From positions 1 to 32,539 of the forward strand of contig JAUWGW010000019.1 in NCBI GenBank assembly GCA_030606215.1: a DNA stretch of 32,539 nucleotides, read 5' to 3'. Numbering within the stretch: the stretch's first letter is position 1; each line of letters begins with the position of its first letter. Source of the stretch: a bacterium. GTDB taxonomy: Bacteria; NPL-UPA2; JAUVJM01. The notes beneath the pieces were generated by a model that made no database searches, had not been told where the DNA came from, and saw only the letters and a list, made by a program, of their open reading frames with translations. Shown one piece after another: positions 1 through 32,539 of this stretch. The position numbers and the translations under genes are program-made.

Positions 1-4
1 CCTG

Positions 5-44
5 CATAGGCACGAAGCAAACGGCCCAGCGGGCGGTGCCTATG
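5..44. repeat. Inverted repeat at the left edge (9-base arms)
   Basis: The arms cataggcac (5-13) and gtgcctatg (36-44) are perfect reverse complements around a 22-base loop rich in C and G. On the minus strand it directly follows the stop codon of the recombinase fragment at 40-435, and a T-rich plus strand follows at 49-57. It may be the end structure or terminator of the decayed recombinase element. Function is inferred; only the symmetry is seen. Confidence 0.4.
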
Positions 45-435
45 AATTATTTTTTTTCTGTAAATTCTTTTTCTTGCAGTTATGGATCGTATTGGGTAAA
101 ATTATTGGGATGGTTCGTTGAGATTCCGAATCCGGAGCCAATTTGAACGCTGAGGAAGGAGAAATTTGGTCATTAACAACTGAATTTCTCCTTTTTCTTT
201 TGGGCAAATTCGAATTTTGCCCAGCGGTCGCCCGCACCCGGCCGCTGGGCGTTTCTGTATAATCTTTTTCGTCACAACTACCCTTATAATAAAGACTTAC
301 CTCAATAAAATCTTTTGAGTAAATAATATTTTTGATGAATTTTTTCACCCAAAGATTCCTTTCAATTCCTTTTTTTCCGGGAAGGATTTTTCTAAAGTGC
401 TGGAGGGTTTGCTTGATGCTGTCCCCTAAATACAT
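40..435 (-). pseudogene. C-terminal fragment of a large serine recombinase
   Basis: This 131-codon reading frame resembles only the last part of large serine (resolvase/invertase-type) recombinases. Residues 1-50 have the lysine-rich helix and 'KKFIKNIIYSKDFIEVSLYY' strand that usually follow the zinc-ribbon and coiled-coil region. A basic tail with 'PSGRVRATAGQN' follows. The catalytic N-terminal domain, the Recombinase domain and the zinc ribbon are absent. Directly upstream in this frame there is a stop at 466-468. The first Met lies at 433-435, four bases after the stop of the TIR-like gene, so the fragment looks cut at that boundary. A second, N-terminal recombinase piece lies on the opposite strand at 1991-2353. 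Family assignment rests on my recognition of the C-terminal pattern and is moderate. It may not be expressed. Confidence 0.5.
217..250. repeat. GC-rich inverted repeat inside the recombinase fragment
   Basis: gcccagcgg (217-225) and ccgctgggc (242-250) are perfect 9-base complementary arms around a 16-base GC-rich loop, in otherwise AT-rich DNA. On the minus strand it lies over the codons for the PSGRVRATAG segment. A related gcccagcgggcgg word recurs at 24-36. It could be a structured 3' region of the recombinase mRNA or a recombination site; neither is shown. Confidence 0.45.
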
Positions 436-31315: not shown

Positions 31316-32323
31316 TTATTTTTTTCTCCTCCTCAAGAAGGGAAGTAAACCCAATAGTCCAGAAGAGAAAAGTAAAAAGGTAGCGGGTTCTGGAACAGCA
31401 CTAGCAACACGGAAACCGCGAGGGGCACTGGCGAGCAGTTCCGGATTATCGATTAATTCACCTCCCGAATCAAGATCAATGAGGGGGCTTTTCCAGCTGC
31501 CCCCGCGAAGAACACGCTGGGTGCTACTACCCCATTCCTCGATCCATTCATACAAGTTTCCTCCCTGGTCAAAAGTTCCCCAGGGAGAGGGGGAGGAGAC
31601 ATAGGCACCAACATCAGTGATGTGGCCTACTGCACTATAGAAATTTGCGGAATTATTTCCTCCTGGTGGAGATTCTGCAGTGGGTGCGGTATCAGAACCT
31701 GTGGGATAGTCATAATAGCCACCATCACCATCATTCTTATCAGGGTCATAGTAAGCGGCCTTATACCACTCATCCCTTGTGGGGATCCAATAGAGGGCAT
31801 CAGGCTTGTGTGCATCCGGGTCATTGTCGTAAGTATCATCGTACCCCCGGGAATCAAGAGAGTCCCCGGGATCAAAGTTGTAGGCCCCAGCCTCTGTTTC
31901 CGTGCTTCCCGGAGTAAGATGATCGTTGTGCAGCCAGTTACAGAACCTTGCCGCATCATACCAGTTGACATGATCTATGGGTTTATTCTCCCAGCCGCTG
32001 GTCACAAAGTAACTACCTCCAGAGTAGGTGATGTTCGTCATATACGAGTTGTGCAAATCATGCTCATCAGATCCACCCGGATCGACAGCATTCAGGAAAT
32101 CACAGTACTCGGTATGGGTAGTCTCATACTTACCGATGTAGTAGTCATAGGTTACTCGTCCATAGCTAGTGTAATCGGGATAGTTGAGATCCCCTTTTTG
32201 TGCGGTAATCATAAGTTTAGCGGACCACCCGGAAGCAGGGTTAATCATATCTGTAAGGCAAAAGACCCCCACGAGCACCAGAAGTAAACTCACTTTCTTA
32301 AAACCAGATAAACCTAAGTTCAT
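31316..32323 (-). CDS. Secreted PEP-CTERM protein with formylglycine-generating-enzyme-like (SUMF1) domain
   Basis: The start is set at ATG 32321-32323, behind AAGGGAG and downstream of a promoter at 32355-32383; longer versions would begin in the promoter. The 335-residue product has a signal peptide (KKVSLLLVLVGVFCLTDM). An SUMF1-like domain follows, with 'YYIGKYETTHTEYCDFLNAV', 'PIDHVNWYDAARFCNWL', 'WIPTRDEWYKAAYYD', 'GNLYEWIEEWG', 'RVLRGGSWKS' and 'PRGFRVA'. The end is a PEP-CTERM sorting signal: 'VPEPATF', a hydrophobic run, then 'RRRKK'. The cysteines that activate true formylglycine enzymes are missing from the C-terminal part, so it probably binds rather than modifies sulfatases. An exosortase elsewhere would process it at the envelope. 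Confidence 0.9.
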   Translation of the reverse strand: MNLGLSGFKKVSLLLVLVGVFCLTDMINPASGWSAKLMITAQKGDLNYPDYTSYGRVTYDYYIGKYETTHTEYCDFLNAVDPGGSDEHDLHNSYMTNITYSGGSYFVTSGWENKPIDHVNWYDAARFCNWLHNDHLTPGSTETEAGAYNFDPGDSLDSRGYDDTYDNDPDAHKPDALYWIPTRDEWYKAAYYDPDKNDGDGGYYDYPTGSDTAPTAESPPGGNNSANFYSAVGHITDVGAYVSSPSPWGTFDQGGNLYEWIEEWGSSTQRVLRGGSWKSPLIDLDSGGELIDNPELLASAPRGFRVASAVPEPATFLLFSSGLLGLLPFLRRRKK

Positions 32324-32354
32324 TTTAGCTCCCTTAAGGTTTTTTACTTTTATT

Positions 32355-32383
32355 AAGATAGCACACTTTTCGGGTTTTGTCAA
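32355..32383 (-). promoter_or_regulatory. Sigma70-type promoter of the PEP-CTERM gene
   Basis: Minus strand TTGACA (32378-32383), 17 bases, TATCTT (32355-32360). The ATG at 32323 is about 31 bases beyond the -10 box, giving a leader with the AAGGGAG site. Confidence 0.75.
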
Positions 32384-32430
32384 AAGAAAAAGTTTAACGG
32401 TAATATAATAAAAAGTGTGTAATTTCAGAT

Positions 32431-32459
32431 TTGCTTGAGAAAAACAAAGGGTGTATCCT
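32431..32459 (+). promoter_or_regulatory. Candidate promoter of the gene starting at 32525
   Basis: TTGCTT (32431-32436), 17 bases, TATCCT (32454-32459). The -10 box lies within the left arm of the inverted repeat at 32449-32523, so transcripts from it would lack most of that arm. Confidence 0.45.
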
Positions 32460-32523
32460 TTCAGTCTAAGGAAAAAAAGATTCGGCAATGGGGCCGGATC
32501 TAAAACAGAAAGGAGATACACCC
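32449..32523 (+). repeat. Inverted repeat enclosing the ribosome binding site of the next gene
   Basis: Left arm gggtgtatcctttc (32449-32462) pairs with gaaaggagatacaccc (32508-32523): nine pairs, a two-base bulge, then five pairs. The right arm contains the AAAGGAG Shine-Dalgarno of the ATG at 32525. A smaller hairpin gattcggc/gccggatc (32479-32486 and 32493-32500) is nested inside. The layout resembles insertion-sequence leaders that block translation from read-through RNA. Confidence 0.55.
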
Positions 32524-32524
32524 T

Positions 32525-32539
32525 ATGTTAGAGTTAACA
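32525..32539 (+). CDS. Start of a plus-strand gene cut by the window edge (possible transposase)
   Basis: ATG at 32525 follows AAAGGAG with good spacing and reads MLELT before the window ends. Five codons are too few for any family assignment. The enclosing inverted repeat and promoter placement suggest an insertion-sequence transposase. Confidence 0.4.

Follow-up and report, generated by a model that had tools for sequence, protein, structure and literature searches.

In the insertion sequences IS10 and IS50, which belong to the IS4 family, the start site of the transposase gene is folded away in RNA that enters from outside and is free in the RNA of the internal promoter. The IS200 transposase differs from that of the IS256 type. 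In IS200 a stem occludes the ribosome binding site, and beside it a terminator for impinging transcripts is described (PMC3196728); in ISPpu9 a structure of the 5' leader limits translation of the transposase and an antisense small RNA stimulates it (PMC8450116). Elements of the IS256 family are described to circularise, and the joined ends form a promoter; in ISCth4 the -35 of this junction promoter lies at bp 6-11 of the right end and its -10 at bp 8-13 of the left end, and such fusion promoters are reported to raise transposase expression (PMC7780238). In the available parts of the accounts of IS256 and ISCth4, a junction promoter and an antisense RNA are described, without a start-site stem (PMC7780238, PMC10266640), and in the open-licence papers searched, mostly as titles and abstracts, we found no description of such a stem in any IS256-family element. 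The available parts of PMC4265352 and PMC5006887 describe no read-through mechanism, and in those of PMC2266710 none of the looked-up terms on the subject was found.

Here we analyse the right-hand end of a DNA stretch of 32,539 nucleotides (the window), in which the leader of an IS256-family transposase gene quite probably hides its start in outside RNA and leaves it open in RNA from an internal promoter. The logic of IS10 and IS50 had been predicted for this locus, and the control layout fits, the start being by calculation paired in outside RNA and open in internal RNA; the family does not, since it is IS256 and not IS4, and the two transposase families are unrelated. Moreover, unlike in IS10 and IS50, the left arm of the stem contains the -10 box itself, which pairs with the Shine-Dalgarno region. 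As in IS200, a stem occludes the ribosome binding site (PMC3196728), whereas no terminator-like site was found near the leader within 32200-32539. With ISPpu9 the locus shares a leader structure that would limit translation of the transposase, but in place of an antisense RNA that stimulates translation there (PMC8450116), leaders of the window type show no excess of antisense promoters (1/28 leaders at p<=0.05). With IS256 and ISCth4, as far as described, it shares the transposase family, the terminal repeats and the split junction promoter with its -35 at the same place of the right end (PMC7780238). The principle is already known for IS10/IS50 and IS200, and its recurrence in the IS256 family would be a new variant.

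According to the mechanism that we propose, RNA derived from a neighbouring gene would carry both arms and fold, by which the Shine-Dalgarno and the start codon would be hidden, and an element landing in a transcribed place would make no transposase on that account alone. RNA of the element's own promoter, whose -10 box lies within the left arm, would begin past that arm (predicted at about 32466) and keep the start site open, so that identical bases would serve as -10 box and as anti-Shine-Dalgarno. Provided that translation follows the predicted folding, we infer from structure and energy that outside RNA would go untranslated and internal RNA would be translated; probably only the element's own weak promoter yields readable RNA. 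The features of the locus are collected in the table.

Table. Features at the right-hand end of the window
Feature	Position	Strand	Basis
Outward promoter TTGACA-17-TATCTT beside the insertion	32355..32383	-	promoter scan; 15 nt from element end
Left end of the insertion sequence	32399..32539	+	141-nt identity to contig C22; element runs past contig end
Left terminal inverted repeat, GGTAATATAATAAAAAGTGTGTAATTTCA	32399..32427	+	aligns with the left end in genome G003, whose right end is an imperfect inverted copy
TATAAT in the inverted repeat, which may be the -10 half of a promoter formed at a circle junction or with the flank	32404..32409	+	sequence; ISCth4/IS256 precedent as described (PMC7780238)
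-35-like TTGCTT of the putative internal promoter	32431..32436	+	TTG spacing in relatives
Left arm of the sequestering stem	32443..32462	+	inverted repeat and RNA fold
-10-like TATCCT inside the left arm, pairing with the Shine-Dalgarno region	32454..32459	+	fold and relatives
Small hairpin within the loop	32478..32501	+	fold; loop length and sequence not conserved
Right arm, spanning Shine-Dalgarno and start codon	32508..32529	+	inverted repeat and RNA fold
Shine-Dalgarno AAGGAG	32510..32515	+	sequence
First 15 nt of the transposase gene (ATG TTA GAG TTA ACA)	32525..32539	+	corresponds in position to the start of the transposase in G003 (L008:1633)

The source genome has 1.52 Mb in 34 contigs, one of which (C23) is the entire window, and this contig ends inside a repeat. 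Its terminal 141 nt, 32399-32539, are identical to positions 1-141 (minus strand) of contig C22 of the same assembly, and the flanks diverge at once; because the 141-nt end recurs exactly and the flanks diverge, a sequence present in at least two copies is taken to have its left boundary at 32399. Such sharing of exactly 141 terminal nt is seen for 12 pairs of contig ends in the assembly, as one expects when repeats break an assembly made with k=141. Two complete elements in G003, a genome of the same phylum (candidate division NPL-UPA2), have left ends that match the window end at 72% identity over 129 nt. In G006, a third genome of this phylum, the last bases of contig C81 are the first 23 nt of the terminal repeat, with one mismatch. 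A search for further copies of the leader had been proposed, and there are two in the source genome, two in G003 and many in relatives. Among the 500 nt at each end of all 34 source contigs, compared for shared ends and for the right inverted repeat, no right end of the window element was found; the source assembly gave no transposase of this type at E<=1e-20, and the viral contigs scanned with the G003 transposase gave no relative. As for the rest of the window, its positions 1-141 are another 141-nt repeat, common to the start of contig C13, and its sole Rfam match at the gathering threshold is a tRNA. Further multi-copy sequences break the assembly at the ends of C2, C3, C4, C28 and C30, of C5, C6 and C32, and of C6, C9 and C18; such multi-copy contig ends recurrently carry, for example, TGTCAAGACAATTTAAAAATGTCC, and are perhaps mobile elements.

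The contig end cuts the transposase gene of the window after 15 nt, and its identity rests on relatives, via the left end of the element. In G003 each of the two copies precedes a full transposase gene, and the copy in L008 is a complete element with inverted terminal repeats at both ends, which agrees with the expectation that the leader stands at the start of a mobile gene. The G003 transposase matches PF00872 (Transposase_mut) at E 1.1e-85, only Transposase_mut and MULE being matched, and reaches 327 bits against the NCBI IS256 model NF033543 (cut-off 150); this model was above its cut-off in all 7 proteins scanned, namely six of this lineage and IS256 itself. A search of solved structures gave one match, the Mutator-family transposase 6xg8 (E 7e-42). 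No IS4 model was among the NCBIfam matches for the scanned proteins, which gives no sign of IS4-type membership, and the six proteins of this lineage had no ISKra4 model among their listed matches and stayed far below the cut-off for ISLre2. Target duplications of 8-9 bp are present in 9 of the 16 relatives with both ends found and fix the ends of these nine; none was seen in the other 7, including L112, a G003 element. The terminal repeats of the relatives read GGTARYGTA..TGTGTAA at left ends and TACACA..TTACC at right ends. Judged by sequence, the window closes with the left end of an IS256-family (Mutator-like) insertion sequence. Beyond the right terminal repeat, one and the same AT-rich sequence follows in both G003 copies (L008 and L112), and their left flanks differ.

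At the start of this gene the original prediction had placed an inverted repeat of 14 pairs with the Shine-Dalgarno of the ATG at 32525 in its right arm, and both points hold. The repeat 32443-32457 / 32515-32529 is 93% complementary over 15 nt, which makes 14 pairs, and the RNA 32431-32539 folds at -36.7 kcal/mol as compared with -19.3 (sd 3.0) for shuffles (z -5.8; 0/200 as good). The full stem consists of 4+8+7 pairs, 32443-32446/32526-32529, 32448-32455/32517-32524 and 32456-32462/32508-32514, and the GA at 32515-32516 bulges out. Since the Shine-Dalgarno lies mostly in the added inner 7-pair segment, protection reaches beyond the 14-pair core; two bases of the ATG (32525-32527) are paired too. 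Compensating changes are already seen when the G003 arms are compared with those of the window.

Such a stem is not restricted to these two genomes. Relatives were scanned with a four-protein alignment in one genome per species; the best 80 of 556 relatives are 28-58% identical, except the query's own element, and upstream of the near members the same layout is found with different sequences. An upstream arm that pairs with the Shine-Dalgarno is present at p<=0.05 in 23/32 close and 24/57 wider transposase genes as against 5/98 neighbouring genes, and at p<=0.005 in 18/32 and 15/57 as against 2/98, where the start was chosen automatically, dinucleotide shuffles were used, and the control consists of neighbouring open frames, from L112-L191 only, to which almost the same rule for the start was applied. 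This test omits near-duplicates and any locus that had no start, scored above -5 for the Shine-Dalgarno or offered too little upstream sequence. Nine of the 32 close genes fail it: in L116, L120, L131 and L133 the start is seemingly misassigned, L141 and L143 are N-terminally incomplete matches, and L084, L132 and L145 fail outright. Among 12 plasmid-borne IS256-family members, hand-chosen from 60 listed and counted at the annotated start only, 7 have the arm at p<=0.05, namely IS256 (p 0.030, weak), IS16 (0.020), ISEf1 (0.030), ISAba26 (0.025) and members from Lactiplantibacillus, Parageobacillus and Thermovirga; no such arm was seen at that start in the other 5 (ISRm5, ISXax1, ISEc58, one member from Rhodococcus and one from E. 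coli). When a covariance model of 28 leaders was run on 70 further loci, 25 gave the leader at E<=0.1, always on the transposase strand and no more than about 190 nt upstream of the aligned gene; one additional antisense hit fell on a palindrome. Nine weaker rows followed at E between 0.1 and 1, of which 5 were at leaders and 4 elsewhere. L083, which lies on the same contig as the model member L139, was not counted. The start-site stem recurs in many members of the IS256 family from many phyla, and some subgroups show none.

The 28 leaders, aligned with MAFFT, are the window and 27 of the 28 loci L112-L139, the fragment L136 being omitted. Their starts were chosen for strongest pairing and the stretches cut at the predicted left arm and the start codon (by hand in L115, L120 and L126), so the alignment is blind to structure and the choice of stretch is not. 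RNAalifold predicts the helix unaided, with two-sided changes in 8 of its 11 pairs. In a helix of 13 pairs, 86.8% of the cells are paired as compared with 75.6% (sd 1.1) in shuffles and 42-58% when the arms are slid by 1-3; two-sided cells number 48 vs 14.4 shuffled and the covariation score is 0.409 vs 0.201 (0/500 for each of these, and for the paired cells too), and 9 pairs with a two-sided change stand against 6.0 shuffled (5/500). Most weight falls on the two-sided changes and the slid control, because comparisons with shuffles are inflated by relatedness and the arms were already in view when the stretches were chosen.

In all 28 leaders the cost of opening is lower in the internal RNA, by at least 5 kcal/mol in 27 of them, and this is insensitive to the exact start. 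To free the stretch from Shine-Dalgarno to start codon takes a median of 16.7 kcal/mol with the left arm and 5.0 in internal RNA; the window itself gives 16.8 vs 4.2 kcal/mol, with just 15 nt of coding sequence in the calculation. The mean unpaired probability of the Shine-Dalgarno shows a softer contrast than the energy, with medians of 0.18 in outside and 0.56 in internal RNA and the expected direction in 26/28 leaders, and it rises from <0.1 to >0.5 in only 1/28. By these calculations a start paired in outside RNA and open in internal RNA, as in the IS10/IS50 type of control, is what the leaders predict.

As for the internal promoter, the claim that the left arm overlaps the gene's own -10 box is supported by close relatives, in which the position and the spacing are conserved, but TTGCTT-17-TATCCT in the window matches only 7/12 of the consensus and was missed by the promoter scanner. 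The sole plus-strand promoter from the scan of 32200-32539 is TTGTCA-18-TAATAT (32377-32406, 9/12), which straddles the flank and the element end. In the 28 leaders TTG stands 17 nt before the TAT of the left-arm TATYCT in 10 and 16-19 nt before it in 21, with the peak at 17; the best -35 match averages 3.96 vs 2.90 (sd 0.16) in shuffles, 0/300 of which reach it, and when leaders are clustered, 16/21 representatives have TTG at 16-19 nt vs 1-4 of 21 at other 4-nt ranges. This spacing counts as independent evidence because pairing with the Shine-Dalgarno must explain part of the conservation of TATCCT. In the wider leaders the -35 signal is weak, with TTG at 17 nt in 3/30 and TATCCT in 17/30, and in the 28 testable ones the best -35 match is 3.21 vs 2.85, 3/300 shuffles being as high. 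The putative internal promoter is well supported in close relatives of the window and unproven in the wider family. As was originally supposed, the transcription start is predicted, from the TTG spacing in relatives, to lie right of the left arm and thus not left of 32449.

It could be considered that the stem damps every transposase mRNA and that the real start lies further left, in the inverted repeat or in the flank, so that the leader would be a general brake as in IS200. The inverted repeat does carry a TATAAT, at bp 6-11 of the element's left end, and in copy C22 (L003:131-160, minus strand) a flanking TTGAGA stands 18 nt before this TATAAT, which makes a hybrid promoter of 11/12 consensus that points into the transposase from outside the stem; the one at the window flank has 9/12. 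Moreover, TTGAC[AG] is present as the -35 half of a junction promoter in 17/21 right ends found (the pattern being restricted to preset pentamers), and junction RNA, which starts left of the left arm and carries both arms, costs a median of 16.2 kcal/mol to open as compared with 16.7 for outside RNA. The weak -35 signal of the wider family points the same way. Against a brake of this kind speaks the TTG of close relatives, whose distance to the left-arm TAT peaks at 17 nt, and a start closed in all RNAs would leave little transposase; we hold it to be unlikely. Junction-promoter RNA was also considered as a route to open translation and rejected, being closed like outside RNA. Such a closed junction RNA is unexpected, fits poorly with the role presumed for the junction promoter and so counts against our reading; it would mean that either the junction promoter does not feed the transposase, or the stem gets opened, or translation leaks. 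A comparison of offsets across element flanks gave no enrichment of a flanking -35 placed to serve the left-end -10. Under the reading that we prefer, of a start hidden in outside RNA and open in internal RNA, the C22 and window-flank promoters would be examples of the fortuitous promoters that such a leader would guard against. It is a possible but rather doubtful extension of the same reading that a left arm combining -10 box and anti-Shine-Dalgarno is found across much of the IS256 family, with read-through and junction RNA both silenced and the transposase made almost only from the weak internal promoter.

Pairing of the Shine-Dalgarno is typical of RNA thermometers, and since this stem pairs it likewise, it might be a switch that opens under a condition, be it a thermometer, a riboswitch or a target of antisense RNA. 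An antisense RNA at the first start site is in fact described for the Enterococcus IS256 (PMC10266640), but antisense promoters are without excess in our leaders, opening costs 10-22 kcal/mol, which we judge high for a thermometer, and no shared aptamer was seen, as neither the length nor the sequence of the loop is constant and the distance from anchor to start is 39-79 nt. Nor is there any Rfam family at the gathering threshold in the window leader or in the leaders of 20 relatives, where the 4 matches lie elsewhere, a c-di-GMP-II match in L137 being 230 nt further left on the opposite strand. A switch thus seems improbable. Still less likely is that the inverted repeat is a DNA site for the transposase or a host factor, with the RNA stem incidental: the repeat does lie within about 130 bp of the element end, but 0-2 nt separate its right arm from the start codon in 27/28 leaders (8 nt in the other one) and the distance from the terminal-repeat motif to the left arm varies over 19-57 nt, so that the stem follows the start codon and not the DNA end, and the arm sequences change with pairing kept. 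A chance inverted repeat upstream of an ordinary gene, for which the weak promoter score alone would speak, is hardly credible in view of the fold z of -5.8, the family-wide excess of arms and the covariation.

The place of insertion deserves attention in its own right. In 14 of 29 near elements (45 flanks), the window with its 15 nt included, an outward promoter of at least 10/12 has its -35 starting 14-17 nt from the element end; 3 more near elements have one at 26-27 nt, and none lies at 0-13 or 18-24 nt. Shuffled flanks give 0.26 promoters at 14-17 nt, and there is one inward promoter in all; the 14-17 nt range was picked after a first look at the flanks. The promoters at 26-27 nt stand one helical turn beyond those at 14-17. 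In the window the promoter beside the insertion is likely that of the neighbour gene 31316-32320 (minus strand), which has a sulfatase-modifying-factor-like domain and a PEP-CTERM motif (PF03781, PF07589). No promoter at 14-17 nt was found for 36 wider IS256 elements, whose ends come from a crude repeat search and are probably misplaced in some cases. Promoter-proximal targeting is reported for the TnGBS/ISLre2 family and for members of the ISKra4 group, and IS256 insertion is called apparently random in the available part of the same source (PMC3942029); in the model scan the six scanned proteins of the promoter-adjacent lineage fit IS256 and not ISKra4 or ISLre2. Insertion 14-17 bp upstream of outward promoters does not fit the apparently random insertion published for IS256, as far as that account is available (PMC3942029).

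To sum up, a fused -10/anti-Shine-Dalgarno arm would be a compact way to discriminate an element's own RNA from foreign RNA. Elements of the IS256 type are widespread in bacteria, and a shared lock on the start site would explain quiet copies in transcribed regions. Moreover, such a lock gives a sharp prediction on the junction promoter, and the reading in which junction RNA is silenced, if true, would run against the accepted boost of transposase by junction promoters in copy-out/paste-in elements.
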